Positions 3,587 through 15,349 of a stretch of DNA of 64,000 bases are shown one piece after another. The notes below the pieces were generated by a model that saw nothing but the letters and a program-made list of their open reading frames with translations, did no database searches and was not told where the DNA came from. Every line of letters begins with the position of its first letter. The first letter of the stretch is position 1. Origin of the DNA: Nitrospira sp. MA-1. Lineage in GTDB: Bacteria > Nitrospirota > Nitrospiria > Nitrospirales > UBA8639. Both the position numbers and the translations under genes were made by a program. The DNA is taken from NCBI GenBank assembly GCA_032139905.1, contig JAQJDB010000004.1, positions 1 through 64,000 on the forward strand. The letters are read 5' to 3'.

Positions 3587-4558
3587 ATGAAAGATGACTC
3601 CATGACCGACCAACAGAAACCAAACCCACGCGGACCCCAAACAATCATTGGCAAACTGTCCGGAAAATCGATCACCATCCCCGATGTCAATGCCCCGCCC
3701 ATGCCCGCACTGGCACCTCCCGGCGTCATTCACAATGGCATGAAAGCCGAAGGTTTCGAAGCGATCAACTCGTCCATCGGATATCCCGATGTGCGGAGCT
3801 TCAGAAGAAAGTTCGGGCTGATAATTCCTGCCACGAATACCAGTATGGAGCACGAACTATGGAGCATCATTTGTAAGAACCAGGGACCGGACGGGTTGCG
3901 AGGGGTGGGCCTTCACACGGCGACCGTCATGACCTCGAAGCCGAGATTGGAAACCGAAGAAGATCTGAGGGCGTATAAGAAACAGTTTCTGGGCGGACTA
4001 AGAGCCGCGGTGGATGTGGCGTTGTTGGCAGAGCCACATTACCTGATCATGGGCATGAGCCTGGAGCATATTCTTGGAGGCCTTGAAGCCATTCGAGCCC
4101 CGATGGAGGAGATTGAAGAGTACTCCGGTCTGTCCTGGGCCACCTGGCATGATGCCATTCACGCGGCGCTGAGGAAATATGGCGCGAAGCGGATCGGCCT
4201 CCTGACGCCGTTCGATAAGAAAGGCAACGAGTTTGCGACGCAGATGTTTGAAGAACTGGGATACGAGGTGGTGTCGAGCGTGGGGTTCTCCTGCGCGAAC
4301 GCGCTGCATATCGCGCATGTTCCGGACTCGGCCAAGGAAAAGGCCATTTTGGAATTGTTGGCGACTGAGGAACATGCATTGGATGCCGTCGTCCAGTGTG
4401 GCACGAACATGAGCTTGATTAATGTGACAGAAAAGTTGGAGCCGGGTCTTGGAATTCCGATCCTGGGGATCAATGCCGTGACCTTCTGGTATGCGCTACG
4501 GGAAAACGGATTTGAAGGACCGTTGGCGGGTGGGGGAAGGTTGTTGCAAGAATTCTAG
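3587..4558 (+). CDS. Arylmalonate decarboxylase / maleate isomerase family protein
   Basis: A 323-residue protein of the Asp/Glu racemase superfamily. After a 70-residue Pro-rich N-terminal extension comes KFGLIIPATNTSMEHEL (75-91), the family's first substrate-binding loop. The second loop is IMGMSLEHILGG (154-165), like the dioxyanion loop of arylmalonate decarboxylase, with no cysteine. The only catalytic-type cysteine is C271 in VVQCGTNMS. Racemases and maleate isomerases use two cysteines, whereas arylmalonate decarboxylase uses only the C-terminal one, so a cofactor-free decarboxylase or single-base isomerase of a small dicarboxylate is more likely than a racemase. Start is uncertain: ATG 3587 or ATG 3602, neither with a good Shine-Dalgarno. 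Confidence 0.65.
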   Translation: MKDDSMTDQQKPNPRGPQTIIGKLSGKSITIPDVNAPPMPALAPPGVIHNGMKAEGFEAINSSIGYPDVRSFRRKFGLIIPATNTSMEHELWSIICKNQGPDGLRGVGLHTATVMTSKPRLETEEDLRAYKKQFLGGLRAAVDVALLAEPHYLIMGMSLEHILGGLEAIRAPMEEIEEYSGLSWATWHDAIHAALRKYGAKRIGLLTPFDKKGNEFATQMFEELGYEVVSSVGFSCANALHIAHVPDSAKEKAILELLATEEHALDAVVQCGTNMSLINVTEKLEPGLGIPILGINAVTFWYALRENGFEGPLAGGGRLLQEF

Positions 4559-4920
4559 GCCGGACGGGAGCCCTATGACAATCCTAGCGCCGACGAGCGG
4601 TCTGATTTTTCGCGCCAGTCTCCGGATTCATGAGAAAGGAGATTAGGCTGTGAAAACCAATGGTGAAATTTTGTTCTAGGGAAAGGAGGTCAGCCGAACC
4701 CTGACGATCTTCGGCCAACCAGAACTCTCATGCTTCGGATCTGGAATTCAAACATCACCTGATACAACGATGGCCGGACGATGGGACGCATGGTGGCCAA
4801 TGTTTTGTCCACAGAACATCCACACTGATGGAAAGGTCGGGATCAATCTGCCTGGCAACGGGATAGAGATGTCCTGAGTCTAGCCTGCTTTTTTCACCTT
4901 GCAACGATGACGAGGACAGT
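4559..4920. other. Intergenic region without a recognised gene
   Basis: A well-spaced GAAAGGAG followed by GTG at 4650 opens only a nine-codon frame (VKTNGEILF) ending in TAG. The frame continues for about 65 further codons to TGA near 4875 without family resemblance. It could be a nonsense-broken small gene but cannot be recognised. No repeat or terminator was seen. Confidence 0.35.
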
Positions 4921-5292
4921 ATGAGTCAAGAGTCACTGTATGAACGTCTTGGCGGGTACGAGGGCATTCTCGCGTTTACAAATGATTTGCTTCCCCGGTT
5001 GCAATCCGACCCTCAATTGGGGCGATTCTGGCAGAATCGAGGTGATGACGGGATAGCCAGGGAGCGCCAACTCCTTATTGATTATTTGTGTGCCAATGCC
5101 GGAGGTCCGATGTACTACACCGGCCGCGATATGAAGCTCTCCCATAAAGGCATGAAAATCAGCGAACGTGATTGGGCGATTTTCCTTGAACATGCCGGGG
5201 CGACGATGAAGGCGTTGGACGTTCCGCGGCAGGAATGTGACGAGGTGGCGGTGTTTGTCTCCAGCTTGAAGCCGGATATCGTCGAAGTCTAA
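4921..5292 (+). CDS. Group I truncated haemoglobin (trHbN-like)
   Basis: A 123-residue globin of the two-over-two fold. The opening LYERLGGYEGI is the family A/B helix start. F36 in LGRFW is the CD1 phenylalanine, and the segment YTGRDMKLSHKGMKI places the haem-ligating proximal His (F8) at H75. The B10 position, a tyrosine that stabilises bound oxygen in most members, appears to be L24 in NDLLPRL, so oxygen affinity or NO dioxygenation may differ from the M. tuberculosis protein. Likely roles are NO or O2 handling in the cytoplasm. It stands alone; the upstream 360 bases have no gene. Confidence 0.85.
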   Translation: MSQESLYERLGGYEGILAFTNDLLPRLQSDPQLGRFWQNRGDDGIARERQLLIDYLCANAGGPMYYTGRDMKLSHKGMKISERDWAIFLEHAGATMKALDVPRQECDEVAVFVSSLKPDIVEV

Positions 5293-5949
5293 GGCGAGGG
5301 ATGACAAGATCTATCCAGTCCACCACTATAAGGTGCCGGGCTTTGGTCCGCGCCAAGCAATAGCTCAGCTGCCGGGGCGAACCCTGGCAACACAGAACAT
5401 CACGCCGACACCAACTCAGCGCGTATAAGGAAGTGTTGAGGTACGAGGTAGTTCTCCTGGTCCGACGCCTGCCGCCCGTCCCATGATCGGACGCTCTTTC
5501 TCTTGGCGGGCTTGTCCGAGCCCCGCGAGTTAGCCCGCCTCCTCCTACTTCACTCAATGGCGGTGACAAGCTGCTCAGCGATCTGTTTGGGGGGGAAGAT
5601 GCGTAGGCGGTTATTTTTGGTATAGAATACCGCCTCCGTGGGAACAGATGATGGCGACTCCTTCGAAATTTTCCGATTCTTTTCTGCCTTCCGGCACATC
5701 CACCTGCTTTCGAATTCTTTCCGTATTCTCCCGCTATGGTCTGATCACCAATACCGGACTTCGTGTGGCGATTCGATAGGTTTGTGGCCCTGTCGGGTGC
5801 CGGAAGAATGGCTCTCGGGGCTGCCGTTCGACTGTTTGGGCGGGCGTCGAGGCCGGCAGGAATTGGCCCAACAGGCCTCACGGTCTTTTCTGAAGGTGTT
5901 TCCATAAAAAACTAGGCAAAAACGTGAGACCTATGCAAAGGAGGCAGGT
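5293..5949. other. Intergenic region with R2 copy 3 and a degenerate R1-like piece
   Basis: From 5333 to 5392 a weak R1-like string (GCTGCCGGGGCGAACCCTGGCA) occurs. R2 copy 3 follows at 5462-5546. Between 5547 and 5940 an 89-codon frame exists (5638-5907, GTG start) but resembles no family, has no Shine-Dalgarno and looks incidental. No terminator was identified. Confidence 0.5.
5462..5546 (+). repeat. R2 dispersed repeat, copy 3
   Basis: Third R2 copy: CGACGCCTGCCGCCCGTCCC, ATGATCGGACGCTCTT, TTGGCGGGCTTGTCCGAGCC, CCGCGAGTTAGCCCGCC. Close to copy 1. Here it is not followed by R1. Confidence 0.8.
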
Positions 5950-7335
5950 ATGAAACCGTTAGAACACGCCATGATCGACAAATTCAAGACACACTTCGGG
6001 GGGGAGGCACTTCTTCCTGGCGACGCCGGCTATGACGAGGTGCGGCAGATCTGGAACGCCATGATCGACCGCCGTCCCGCGTTGATTGCCCGCTGTGTGT
6101 CAACTGAAGATGTCGTCCAGGCGGTCGGGTTCGCGCGCAAGCACAACCTGCTTGTCTCGATCCGAAGCGGCGGGCACAACATCGCGGGGAACGCCGTCTG
6201 CGACGACGGCCTCATGATTGACCTCTCGCTGATGAAGAATGTTCAAGTGGATCCGAAGGCTCGCCGGGCGACCGTCGAGCCCGGCTGCACCCTTGCCGAT
6301 TTCGACGCGGCCGCGCAGGCCCACGGCCTCGCCACCCCGCTGGGCATCAACTCGACCACGGGCGTGGCCGGCCTGACGCTCGGAGGCGGGTTCGGCTGGC
6401 TGAGCCGGAAGTACGGTATGACCATCGACAACCTGCTTTCCGCGCATGTCGTCACGGCGGAGGGGCGTCAAGTGCATGCCAGCGCAACGGAACACGAAGA
6501 CCTCTTCTGGGGGCTGCGTGGTGGTGGTGGGAACTTGGGTATTGTCACCAGCTTTGAGTTTCAACTCCATCCCGTCGGGCCGGACGTCTTAAGCGGGCTC
6601 ATTGTCTTCCCCTTCGACCAGGCGAAGTCGGTGCTGACGCAGTTCGCCCGTTTCACCGAGACGATGCCGGACGAGCTTGCCGTCTGGATGGTCACCCGGA
6701 AGGCGCCCCCTCTGCCCTTTCTACCGACGGAGGTCCACGGGAAAGAGATCGTCGCCCTTGCATTGTGCTACGCGGGTGACCCCACTCTGGGCAAGAAGCT
6801 GATCGAGCCGCTGCGCAGGTTCGGCACGGCTCACGGTGAGCACATCGGCGTGCAGCCCTACATGGCCTGGCAACAGGCCTTCGATCCGCTCCTGACGCGG
6901 GGTGCGCGCAACTACTGGAAGTCCCATAACTTTTCGGAACTGAGTCACGGCGCGATCGACGCCGTTATTCAATATGTCGGCACCTTTCCGTCGCCGCAAT
7001 GCGAGATTTTCGTCGCTGCGATCGGTGGCCAGACGGCCCGCGTCGCGCCCGAGGCGATGGCCTACTCAAGCCGGGACGCCAACTACGTGATGAACGTGCA
7101 TGCCCGTTGGGAGGGAGCTGCCGATGACGAGGCCTGCATCGCCTGGGCGCGCGAATTCTTTGCCGCGTCACAGCCGTTTGCCAGCGGTGGTGCGTACATC
7201 AACTTCCTCACCCAAGACGAGACCGACCGCATTGCGTTCGCCTACGGTGCGACGTACAACCGGTTGGTGGAGCTTAAGAAGAAGTACGACCCGACGAACC
7301 TCTTCCGGATGAACCAGAACGTCAGGCCGGTCTGA
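5950..7335 (+). CDS. FAD-linked oxidase, BBE-like (single covalent His)
   Basis: A 461-residue flavin oxidase of the PCMH/berberine-bridge family. The FAD PP-loop region holds IRSGGHNIAG with H76, the residue that binds the FAD 8-methyl group. At the position of the second link (Cys in bicovalent members) alignment with the paralogue at 7678 gives N134 in LGINSTTGVAG, so flavin attachment should be by His only. The C-terminal BBE segment ends YDPTNLFRMNQN. Members oxidise sugars, alkaloids or aromatic alcohols with O2; the substrate is not readable. AAAGGAGG lies 9 bases before ATG. Base use is GC-rich (for example 45 of 60 bases at 6301-6360), unlike its surroundings, suggesting recent acquisition. 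Confidence 0.85.
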   Translation: MKPLEHAMIDKFKTHFGGEALLPGDAGYDEVRQIWNAMIDRRPALIARCVSTEDVVQAVGFARKHNLLVSIRSGGHNIAGNAVCDDGLMIDLSLMKNVQVDPKARRATVEPGCTLADFDAAAQAHGLATPLGINSTTGVAGLTLGGGFGWLSRKYGMTIDNLLSAHVVTAEGRQVHASATEHEDLFWGLRGGGGNLGIVTSFEFQLHPVGPDVLSGLIVFPFDQAKSVLTQFARFTETMPDELAVWMVTRKAPPLPFLPTEVHGKEIVALALCYAGDPTLGKKLIEPLRRFGTAHGEHIGVQPYMAWQQAFDPLLTRGARNYWKSHNFSELSHGAIDAVIQYVGTFPSPQCEIFVAAIGGQTARVAPEAMAYSSRDANYVMNVHARWEGAADDEACIAWAREFFAASQPFASGGAYINFLTQDETDRIAFAYGATYNRLVELKKKYDPTNLFRMNQNVRPV

Positions 7336-12351: not shown

Positions 12352-13317
12352 GTGAACGAAATCAGCATATTCGTATCTGAGTATGGCGGAATTGTGTTGT
12401 TTGCCATCGTCTTCGCCGAGCAAGTCGGCCTTCCGATTCCGGCAGTCCCGGTATTATTGGCGGCCGGTGCCCTGGCGGGTGCCGGGCAGATGGATCTCGG
12501 TGTCGCCATTGTTCTTTCTATCGTCGCCTGTCTGGCTGGCGATGTGGTGTGGTACGAGGTGGGCCGGCGTCGAGGCCGGCAAGCCCTCAGTCTTCTCTGC
12601 CGCATTTCATTGGAACCTGATTTTTGCGTGCGGCGGACCGAGAATTTTTTTACCCGTCATGGCATCCGCGCGCTGATTTTCGCAAAGTTTCTGCCGGGCT
12701 TAAGCACGCTCGCGCCGGCGATGGCCGGTCTCTTTGGAATCAGATTCACTCGTTTCCTGGGCTATGACGGACTGGGTGCGGGACTCTGGGCGCTGGCGTT
12801 TGTGTTGCCTGGGTATGTCTTCAGCAGTGAGATCGAAGCCATTGCCGCCCAACAATCCCGCGCCGGTCTGGTCTTTCTGATGGCGATGGGTATCGGCCTC
12901 GTGGCCTACATTGCTTATAAGTTTGCCCACCGGCAATGGGTGTTGCGCGAGTTGCGGATGGCCCGCATTTCGGTGGACGAGCTGAAAGGGATGATGGACA
13001 AGGGCCATGAGGTCTTCGTGTTGGATCTGCGCGGTGCGTTGGATCACGAAGCGGACCCCTACACCATTCCAGGAGCTCTCCGCATGACCGCGGATGAATT
13101 AGAACAGCGGCATGCCGACATTCCGCGACAGAGTGATGTTATTCTATTCTGTGCCTGCCCGAACGAAGCGACTGCTGCCATGATGGCGTTAATGTTGCGG
13201 AGGCGGGGAATTACGAAAGTACGGCCTCTTGCCGGAGGCATCGACGCCTGGCGCGAACGGAACTTTCCTCTTGAAGCCACATCGTCGGTTGCCTCCACTG
13301 GTCTTGTGGCCGGGTGA
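12352..13317 (+). CDS. DedA-like membrane protein fused to a rhodanese domain
   Basis: 321 residues, GTG start. Residues 1-190 form a DedA/VTT membrane domain with about five hydrophobic segments and the family loop AKFLPGLSTLAPAMAGLFGI (111-130). DedA proteins are thought to act in lipid or undecaprenyl-phosphate transport. From about 205 a rhodanese domain begins (ISVDELKGM; VFVLDLRG; GALRMTADEL), with the active-site loop FCACPNEATAAM holding C267 and C269; C267 is in the sulfur-carrying position. The C-terminal GGIDAWRERNFPLE is the usual rhodanese end. Such fusions are known; the combination suggests sulfur or redox relay at the inner membrane, but this is inference. Confidence 0.85.
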   Translation: MNEISIFVSEYGGIVLFAIVFAEQVGLPIPAVPVLLAAGALAGAGQMDLGVAIVLSIVACLAGDVVWYEVGRRRGRQALSLLCRISLEPDFCVRRTENFFTRHGIRALIFAKFLPGLSTLAPAMAGLFGIRFTRFLGYDGLGAGLWALAFVLPGYVFSSEIEAIAAQQSRAGLVFLMAMGIGLVAYIAYKFAHRQWVLRELRMARISVDELKGMMDKGHEVFVLDLRGALDHEADPYTIPGALRMTADELEQRHADIPRQSDVILFCACPNEATAAMMALMLRRRGITKVRPLAGGIDAWRERNFPLEATSSVASTGLVAG

Positions 13318-13421
13318 GCCTGGTTGGCCTGAAGATGGGACGCCACAGACGGTCCAGGGTGGGTCATGGTTCCCTCTCACAATTAAACCGCCATAAAATA
13401 TTTGGATAAAAGGAGAAGAGT

Positions 13422-15071
13422 ATGGCCGTATCAGACCTTCAATCTATCGCCTTCCCAATTCTCGACGAATTCCAAATCGGCGAGCTCAGTCGTTGTGCGG
13501 CCGCCACGCCAAAGTTGTATCCGGACGGAGCGACGCTGTTTGCCATCGGGGACCGTAACTTCAAATTCCATGTTATCAAATCAGGTGAAGTCGAAATCTT
13601 TGACTATTCCGGAGATGAGCCAAAGACCCTGACGGTTCATCATCAAGGGGGGTTCACCGGCGATATCTCTCACCTCACCGGCAATCCTTCGGTGGTGAGT
13701 GCTGTGGCCAAGGGCGATTGTGAAGTGTACGAGATCTCAGGGGATGCGCTCATGCAGGTCCTGAATCAGTGTCCGGTCCTGAGTGACATCATCCTCCAGG
13801 CATTCATCGCCCGGCGGCAACTCCTGCACAAGTCGGCTGATTTTACCGGTCTGCGGGTTATCGGCTCCCGTTATTCGGCCGACACCTTCCGGGTCCGGGA
13901 TTTCCTGGCTAAGAACCATGTGCTCTTTACCTGGGTGGATGTGGAGACGGACCCGCAGGTGGACCGGCTTCTTAAGCATTTTGGCGTGACTGAAGCCGAC
14001 ACGCCCGTGGTGGCCTGCAGCAAGATGCTGCTTCTCCGCAACCCATCGAACCGCGACCTGGCTGACGGCATCGGTATCCGCCATCCCTTGGCGGCGGCGG
14101 TGTACGATTTAGTTGTGGTGGGAGCCGGTCCCGCAGGTTTAGCCGCGGCGGTCTATGGTGCCTCGGAAGGGTTACGGACGGCCGTGCTCGAGCGCACGGC
14201 TCCCGGCGGGCAAGCCGGCACCAGTATGAGGATAGAAAACTATCTTGGTTTTCCCACCGGCGTGACGGGTAGCGAACTCACCGACCGTGCCATTATCCAA
14301 GCCAATAAATTCGGTGTCCGCCTATCTGTCCCGTCGCCGGTCACACATCTGACATTCGACAAAACTTATTCCATTATACATCTCGACGGAGAGGAATCGA
14401 TCACGACGAAATGCCTGTTGATCGCCACCGGTGTCGATTATCGCCGACTCGGTGCCGAGGATGAGGAGAAATTTGAGGGAAGGGGTGTGTACTTCGCCGC
14501 AACTCCCGTTGAAGCCCAAATGTGTCGGGGAGGCCAGGTGGCAGTCGTGGGTGGAGGCAATTCTGCAGGCCAGGCTGCGGTGTTTCTTGCGGGGCAGGCC
14601 AGGAAGGTCTTTCTCGTGATTCGCGGTGATGACCTGTACAAGAATATGTCGAGTTATCTGGCCAGACGGATTGAACAGACCGCCAACATTGAGATTCTTC
14701 GTCACACGACGGTCCGCCGGATGCACGGGAATGGATACCTCGGTTCCATCGACATTGCCAATAGCCAAACGGGTGAGGAGCGAACAGTAGAGATGGCTGC
14801 CGTATTCACTTTCATTGGAGCCGTGCCACGAACCGACTGGTTGCCGACGGAGATCGAGCGGGACGCGAAAGGGTTTGTCCGGACCGGCACCATACTGGCA
14901 CAGACCTCACAGTGGACTTCTCTCCGGCCACCGTTCCTGCTGGAGACCAGCCGTCCTGGCGTTTTCGCGGCCGGGGACGTGCGCGCCGATTCGATTAAAC
15001 GCGTCGCCTCGGCCGTCGGTGAAGGCGCGATGGCTGTACAGTTCGTGCATGAATACCTCAAGGAATTGTAA
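13422..15071 (+). CDS. cNMP-binding / thioredoxin-fold / TrxR-like fusion flavoprotein
   Basis: 549 residues, AAAGGAG before ATG. Residues 14-130 resemble a cyclic-nucleotide-binding beta-barrel. Residues 140-220 look like a thioredoxin-fold domain without cysteines (IGSRYSADTFRVRDFL where CxxC would stand). Residues 227-549 form a thioredoxin-reductase-type flavoprotein: VVVGAGPAGLAAAVYGAS (FAD), PGGQAGTSMRIENYLGFP, AVVGGGNSAGQAAVFLAG (NADPH), and a C-terminal GDVR motif. The redox CxxC normally after the FAD half is replaced (GRGVYFAATPVEAQM, about 354-367). So it cannot reduce thioredoxin in the classical way and probably moves electrons to another acceptor. A zinc-finger gene follows 14 bases downstream. 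Confidence 0.85.
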   Translation: MAVSDLQSIAFPILDEFQIGELSRCAAATPKLYPDGATLFAIGDRNFKFHVIKSGEVEIFDYSGDEPKTLTVHHQGGFTGDISHLTGNPSVVSAVAKGDCEVYEISGDALMQVLNQCPVLSDIILQAFIARRQLLHKSADFTGLRVIGSRYSADTFRVRDFLAKNHVLFTWVDVETDPQVDRLLKHFGVTEADTPVVACSKMLLLRNPSNRDLADGIGIRHPLAAAVYDLVVVGAGPAGLAAAVYGASEGLRTAVLERTAPGGQAGTSMRIENYLGFPTGVTGSELTDRAIIQANKFGVRLSVPSPVTHLTFDKTYSIIHLDGEESITTKCLLIATGVDYRRLGAEDEEKFEGRGVYFAATPVEAQMCRGGQVAVVGGGNSAGQAAVFLAGQARKVFLVIRGDDLYKNMSSYLARRIEQTANIEILRHTTVRRMHGNGYLGSIDIANSQTGEERTVEMAAVFTFIGAVPRTDWLPTEIERDAKGFVRTGTILAQTSQWTSLRPPFLLETSRPGVFAAGDVRADSIKRVASAVGEGAMAVQFVHEYLKEL

Positions 15072-15085
15072 GAAAGGCCAACACC

Positions 15086-15349
15086 ATGTCCCAATCATCC
15101 TGCAGCCATCTCGATCAGATTCGCAACGTGAAACCGGGCGCCGCTGTCTGCGAAGAATGTGTCACTCTGAATGACCGGTGGGTCCATTTGCGAATGTGCC
15201 TCATCTGTGGTCAGGTCGGATGTTGCGATTCTTCAAAGAACAAGCATGCGACGAAGCATTTTCAGGCGACCAGTCATCCCATCATCCGCTCTATCGAACC
15301 AGGGGAACAATGGCGGTGGTGTTACCTGGATGAGCTGTTCATGGAATAG
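15086..15349 (+). CDS. UBP-type zinc-finger protein
   Basis: An 87-residue protein made of one ZnF-UBP module: CSH at 6-8, CEEC at 22-25, MCLICGQVGCCD with C38, C41 and C46/C47, and histidines in NKHATKHFQATSHP. In eukaryotes this finger binds the free C-terminus of ubiquitin; bacterial stand-alone versions have no known ligand. It lies 14 bases after the TrxR-like fusion, with AAAGG before the start, so the two are probably co-transcribed and may work together. Cytoplasmic. Confidence 0.85.
   Translation: MSQSSCSHLDQIRNVKPGAAVCEECVTLNDRWVHLRMCLICGQVGCCDSSKNKHATKHFQATSHPIIRSIEPGEQWRWCYLDELFME

Follow-up and report, generated by a model that had tools for sequence, protein, structure and literature searches.

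The window (the whole stretch of 64,000 nucleotides that was analysed) harbors on its forward strand two genes that are separated by 14 nt, each of them preceded by a purine-rich stretch that reads like a ribosome-binding site (Table 1). A sequence-only reading of this DNA had placed a flavoprotein fusion and a UBP-type zinc finger here, and both open reading frames are indeed present with the extent and content that it gave. The first gene encodes a protein in which, according to Pfam matches and an AF2 model, a cyclic nucleotide-binding (CNB)-like domain, a linking helix, a thioredoxin-fold segment and a part resembling thioredoxin reductase (TrxR) follow one another. The model, which was built from 81 related sequences, has a mean pLDDT of 93.3 and a pTM of 0.90, and in Pfam residues 228-535 match Pyr_redox_2 (PF07992) with 118.6 bits. 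The second protein matches zf-UBP over residues 22-83 with 50.9 bits, the cut-off being 22.7.

A gene for a DedA/VTT-rhodanese fusion (12352-13317 of the window, same strand) lies 104 nt upstream of the flavoprotein gene. It was considered as a part of the core operon and rejected, because it is kept in the nearest relative only: it is found in G020, the closest one, and is absent in G037 and G053. An origin from a phage or a defence system was likewise discarded, with no matches (0) in PADLOC and a match to PHROG 6397 that spans the TrxR domain only. Viral contigs yielded eight matches in all, mostly partial ones.

Table 1. Genes and features of the flavoprotein-finger locus, with positions in the window.
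Feature	Position	Strand	Remarks
Flavoprotein gene	13422..15071	+	549 aa; CNB-like / thioredoxin-fold / TrxR-like
zf-UBP gene	15086..15349	+	87 aa; PDB 2IDA homologue
AAGGAGA, likely ribosome-binding site of flavoprotein gene	13410..13416	+	sequence read
AAAGG, possible ribosome-binding site of zf-UBP gene, within the 14-nt gap	15073..15077	+	sequence read
CNB-like domain	13515..13769	+	residues 32-116; Pfam PF00027 cNMP_binding 58.7 bits, cut-off 27.5
Phosphate-binding-cassette segment	13659..13700	+	residues 80-93 GDISHLTGNPSVVS; Ser90 at PKA R209 position
Thioredoxin/glutaredoxin-fold domain without CxxC	13851..14072	+	residues ~144-217; AF2 secondary structure, residue census
TrxR-like FAD/NAD(P)H domains	14103..15059	+	residues 228-546
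Former CATCD site, now AATPVE	14496..14513	+	residues 359-364
Cys368 codon	14523..14525	+	residue census, 92 relatives

Lost and retained redox sites of the flavoprotein

The sequence-only reading had claimed that both CxxC sites to be expected in a protein of this kind are absent, and this proved correct. Compared with the canonical TrxRs of the same genomes, the CATCDG motif has turned into AATPVEA with an insertion of one residue, and a CxxC at the TrxR site is found in none of 92 relatives (0/92). In the thioredoxin-fold part, SADT stands in place of the redoxin CxxC; the residue census of the 92 relatives gives a cysteine at position 152 in six of them and a conserved CxxC in none. The cis-proline Pro195 is kept in 92/92, and the strand and helix order of a thioredoxin fold is present in the AF2 model, the sequence matches being weak (PF13848, E 0.012; Grx, E 0.04). 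Near the lost CATC-D site lie both C368, which alone among the cysteines of the family is near-invariant (Cys in 89/92), and E364 (Glu in 87/92).

It had further been claimed that the FAD and NADPH motifs are intact. This holds for FAD, in that the FAD and dinucleotide-binding glycines are almost invariant across the relatives, but only in part for NADPH, since the HRRxxxR motif for the 2'-phosphate is only partly kept and reads IRGDDLY, with one arginine remaining (R401, conserved in 91/92). The FAD and NAD(P)H domains of the TrxR fold are themselves present, as judged from the PF07992 match and from structural comparison. In Foldseek, the flavoprotein part of the model superimposes on the flavin-reducing (FR) pose of a TrxR (5mh4) with a TMt of 0.90 and an rmsd of 2.5, and more poorly on the flavin-oxidising (FO) pose of the same enzyme (5mjk; TMt 0.69, rmsd 5.9). 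Because the model fits the flavin-reducing pose far better, it suggests that NAD(P)H may still reach the FAD and that the dithiol step is gone.

With the low-Mr TrxRs (TIGR01292) the protein shares the fold, the FAD motifs and about 30-36% identity, but it has no CxxC, a changed HRR motif and extra N-terminal domains, and its score of 229.5 bits is below the curated cut-off of 343.45. The genome of the window encodes an ordinary CxxC-type TrxR elsewhere (L002), and the flavoprotein is therefore not the sole thioredoxin-reductase-like protein of the cell. In the bacillithiol disulfide reductase Bdr/YpdA (TIGR04018), the active-site cysteine sits in the flavin motif GGGPCG, whereas the window protein reads GAGPAG (49.4 vs. 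339.9 bits). AhpF resembles it in that a thioredoxin-fold part precedes a TrxR-like part, but AhpF keeps the redox cysteines in both of these parts, while the window protein has no redox cysteines and carries a CNB-like domain in addition. The proteins that NCBI names "cyclic nucleotide-binding domain-containing thioredoxin-disulfide reductase" or FAD-dependent oxidoreductase are of the same family, with the same architecture and zf-UBP neighbor. However, the former name implies disulfide reduction by a CxxC as well as binding of a cyclic nucleotide, and both motifs are missing in all relatives examined. Relatives of the flavoprotein are encoded at no fewer than 586 genome loci, in many cases under the name "thioredoxin-disulfide reductase", which is contradicted by their sequence.

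An exchangeable sensor and a zinc finger

The proposal of the sequence-only reading that cAMP or cGMP gates the electron transfer had been tied to the phosphate-binding cassette of the N-terminal domain. Of this cassette, the segment is present, its glycine is kept and 72 of 73 CNB-type members have an acidic residue (Glu/Asp) there, but the key arginine (the position of R209 in PKA) is missing in 73/73, with a serine, Ser90, in the window. It is this arginine that contacts the phosphate of cAMP, and CNB domains with other motifs sense other ligands (PMC2246266). Gating by cAMP or cGMP thus is not supported. CNB domains that are joined to a pyridine nucleotide oxidoreductase are known as the Bact_Pyrredox class (Kannan 2007, PMC2246266). 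Those, however, are arranged in tandem, follow the oxidoreductase and have kept the arginine motif (GEMGLISGRRRGATVRA), whereas the CNB-like domain of the window is single, N-terminal and devoid of the arginine.

In a second branch of the family, a response-regulator receiver (REC) replaces the CNB-like domain (one member was scanned). This branch forms one clade with an SH-aLRT support of 100, and the REC-type flavoprotein gene has a CNB-HATPase histidine-kinase-type gene as its neighbor in about 17 of 20 loci. The core is therefore controlled in two modes, in one by a CNB-like sensor in the same chain and in the other by a two-component equivalent of that sensor, which makes the sensor exchangeable. 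Fusions of REC with thioredoxin reductase ("Mycobacterium-like") have already been noted (PMC5847659). They have the thioredoxin-fold and TrxR-like core in common with the window protein, at about 44-49% identity, and often the zf-UBP neighbor, but carry an N-terminal REC instead of the CNB-like domain and have the CNB-histidine kinase gene adjoining.

As for the finger, its model matches 2IDA and HDAC6 in Foldseek. The nearest solved relative is RPA1320 of Rhodopseudomonas palustris (PDB 2IDA; 54% identity, TMq 0.88, rmsd 1.4), a structural-genomics entry whose title gives no partner or function. Across 29 finger sequences, C22, C25, C38, C41, C46, C47, H54, H58, H64 and C79 are invariant, and the consensus of the bacterial fingers is CxxC...W.HLRxCxxCG...CCDxS...H...H.....H....S.E..E.W.WC. 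In the zf-UBP domains of USP5 and HDAC6, an arginine in the CGR loop holds the carboxylate of the ubiquitin GG end. None of the aligned bacterial fingers has this arginine, the loop reading CCDSS instead, and a non-exhaustive look at the recurrent neighbors revealed no ubiquitin-like, E1 or JAB families. The idea that the finger binds a protein C-terminus, as part of a carrier or degradation system, therefore found no support. A ligand other than ubiquitin would not be unusual for the zf-UBP fold, since the fingers of USP20 and USP33, to which the ubiquitin C-terminus does not measurably bind, recognise other motifs (PMC13376213).

Bacterial zf-UBP fingers also occur in other protein contexts. 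They are found C-terminally in Na/H exchanger-TrkA proteins (L034:3225-5258, L161, L162 and L163, from Deinococcus and genomes of the second phylum considered below), N-terminal to a DAC (DisA-type) cyclase domain (L166:4015-5019) and behind an LtrA membrane domain (L165:3185-4606). Such fusions to an antiporter, to LtrA and to a DAC cyclase are how regulatory or binding domains behave. Further zf-UBP genes adjoin DUF5996 (PF19459; L154:1123-3010 and L177:6418-7365), and the first of these loci also holds a HAD hydrolase and a Na/H exchanger.

Co-occurrence and gene neighborhoods

That the two genes occur together across genomes, which the sequence-only reading had proposed as a check, is strongly supported, and the pairing extends over many phyla. 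Among 80 relatives from named genomes, a zf-UBP gene adjoins the flavoprotein gene in 31, before or after it, always on the same strand and within about 0.2 kb, with no further copy in the flanks of the 80 loci. In the phylum of the window (296 genomes), the finger is present in seven genomes and a close flavoprotein in six, all of which are among those seven (hypergeometric p 8e-12, computed without regard to shared ancestry); the genes are adjacent in five of the six and 20 kb apart in one. In a second phylum (198 genomes), 32 of the 40 flavoprotein genomes have the finger vs. 13 of the 158 others (p 4e-19, with ancestry likewise ignored). Many genomes without an adjoining finger carry one elsewhere, and because the gene tree needs 18 changes to account for the adjacency, it must have been gained or lost many times.

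In a plasmid-derived locus of Gemmatirosa (L037), an open frame at 3922-6030 holds the finger C-terminal to the flavoprotein. The tblastn match of the latter (4001-5617) is on the same strand as this frame, and the lengths are consistent with one frame, though Pfam, applied to the submitted stretch as read from the first base of the frame, listed the finger only. Read from sequence, this locus is consistent with a single flavoprotein-finger chain and is a candidate fusion. The flavoprotein is also found in Nitrososphaerota archaea (L050, L057 and L071), with two copies in one Nitrosocosmicus genome; the archaeal copies branch within a bacterial clade, a placement suggestive of transfer. In the open literature that we searched, a pair of zf-UBP and TrxR is not described; subscription papers, including prokaryotic treble-clef comparative genomics, may mention it.

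The recurrent neighbors of the flavoprotein include EgtB (TIGR03440), EgtD (TIGR03438) and an ABC transporter of the glycine-betaine/choline type. A distance of no more than about 8 kb separates egtD from the flavoprotein gene in 9/80 loci (Acidobacteriota, Myxococcota and Bacteroidota) vs. 0.34 loci expected (p 8e-11; the expectation is a rough one, with one copy per 4 Mb), and this linkage requires at least eight changes on the gene tree; 71/80 loci have no egtD within the flank. The linkage is seen in L042, the nearest outside relative and clade mate of the window (66% identical), and in the related clade of L148 and L150, these two and L153 being the three relatives from the phylum of the window in which EgtD is linked. 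In this phylum, EgtD is present in 7/7 UBP genomes vs. 45/296 overall (p 1e-6), and in three of the seven it lies within 1.4-4 kb. The genome of the window itself has two egtD-like genes, one of them beside a betaine-type transporter, all on other contigs.

In the second phylum, flavoprotein, UBP and EgtD lie within about 1.5 kb in seven genomes, and in one of them (L176) UBP, flavoprotein, EgtB and EgtD are consecutive on one strand. EgtD is found in 37/40 flavoprotein genomes vs. 39/158 others (p 2e-15) and in 43/45 UBP genomes vs. 33/153 others (p 3e-20), so that the association with EgtD is no weaker for UBP than for the flavoprotein. The same is seen among genomes lacking the flavoprotein, where EgtD occurs in 11 of 13 with the finger vs. 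28 of 145 without it (p 3e-6). These genome-level correlations may in part stem from shared lifestyle, genome size and ancestry. The gene tables are simple ORF calls; some EgtD matches narrowly miss the curated cut-off, and for some EgtB-type proteins the OvoA N-terminal model gives the higher score.

An ergothioneine-specific transporter belongs to the same broad superfamily as the neighboring betaine-type transporters (PMC9732360). As a precedent, mammalian TrxR is reported to accept oxidised ergothioneine as a substrate (Jenny et al. 2022, PMC8868364; cited in PMC9732360 and PMC10950700). In a recent review, the ergothioneine thiol transferase is listed as unknown (PMC10950700), and the literature that we searched describes no bacterial ergothioneine reductase.

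Actinobacterial loci have chaperone genes in place of egtD. In Rhodococcus and Streptomyces, the UBP and flavoprotein genes form the end of a dnaK-grpE-dnaJ-cbpM-clpB-trxA operon, and DnaK and ClpB are each present in 17/80 loci. A DUF1931 gene (L033:7971-8411) follows the flavoprotein gene in a stress operon on a Rhodococcus plasmid.

A possible role in thiol homeostasis

Because the pair recurs beside genes for the synthesis and putative import of the antioxidant ergothioneine, our tentative proposal is that it constitutes a sensor-controlled NAD(P)H flavoprotein with a zinc-finger partner that acts in the homeostasis of a low-molecular-weight thiol, most likely ergothioneine, or in that of oxidative stress. 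The N-terminal sensor, here of a CNB fold that is non-canonical for cAMP, would set the activity, and it is this part that is exchanged for REC and a CNB-histidine kinase in the other branch. NAD(P)H would then reduce the FAD, with the pyridine domain predicted to take a pose like the flavin-reducing one of TrxR. The electrons would bypass the CxxC dithiol, and the E364/C368 site, or direct contact with the flavin, may serve a different acceptor. The redox-inactive thioredoxin-fold domain may dock this acceptor or the finger, and the finger, whose association with the flavoprotein is evident from the genomes, would serve binding or regulation, with a ligand that differs from the ubiquitin C-terminus. 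The actinobacterial Trx/Hsp70/ClpB operons also speak for such a role, whereas the placement of egtD on other contigs in the genome of the window and the lack of egtD in the flanks of most loci speak against it.

Other explanations have to be weighed against this. It is conceivable, if rather unlikely, that the TrxR-like part is a pseudo-enzyme that reads the redox state of NAD(P)H/FAD and signals through the finger, with no electron transfer to a substrate. The lack of both redox-cysteine sites in all relatives would fit this, as would the predicted flavin-reducing pose, as if the domain swing were unneeded, and the occurrence of the finger in fusions with regulatory or transport outputs. However, the near-complete conservation of the FAD site, the NAD(P) glycine motif and the single Cys and Glu fits a working flavoenzyme. 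An unlikely role as well is that of a proteostasis module, in which flavoprotein and finger couple NAD(P)H or the redox state to the work of Hsp70 and ClpB on oxidised proteins, the ergothioneine genes being merely co-selected. The actinobacterial operons and the frequency of DnaK and ClpB argue for it, but the chaperone context stays within a single actinobacterial portion of the tree (4 changes) and is absent around the window and in most other phyla.

A more specific form of the thiol proposal, which we consider improbable as a whole, would be a dedicated ergothioneine redox system. In it, the flavoprotein would regenerate ergothioneine with NAD(P)H, the CNB sensor would respond to something other than cAMP or cGMP, and the finger, with its conserved Trp/Tyr/Glu surface and no ubiquitin arginine, would be a carrier or sensor of ergothioneine or betaine. 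More improbable still is a one-electron donor under sensor control, akin to the ferredoxin/flavodoxin-NADP reductases (FNRs) of the TrxR type. These have likewise lost the CxxC, and the sequence matches them weakly (E about 1e-13 to 1e-7); yet by score the protein stands much nearer to TrxR than to FNR, and ferredoxin or flavodoxin families were not noticed among the recurrent neighbors. The original combination of cAMP/cGMP-gated electron transfer with a finger that, in a carrier or degradation system, binds the C-terminus of a protein is highly improbable, since the Pfam CNB match, the acidic cassette residue and the zf-UBP fold in its favor are outweighed by the loss of both the cassette and the carboxylate arginines, and no ubiquitin-like partner was noticed among the recurrent neighbors.

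NCBI already has names for both families, and the literature contains the REC version (PMC5847659); the apparent novelty lies in the corrected chemistry, the swap of the sensor and the link to ergothioneine. With respect to the thiol role that we prefer, the linkage supplies named, co-occurring candidate genes for the transfer or reduction of the ergothioneine thiol. In bacteria, zf-UBP fingers thus track ergothioneine synthesis, and they are found fused to an antiporter, to LtrA, to a DAC cyclase and, apparently, to the flavoprotein.
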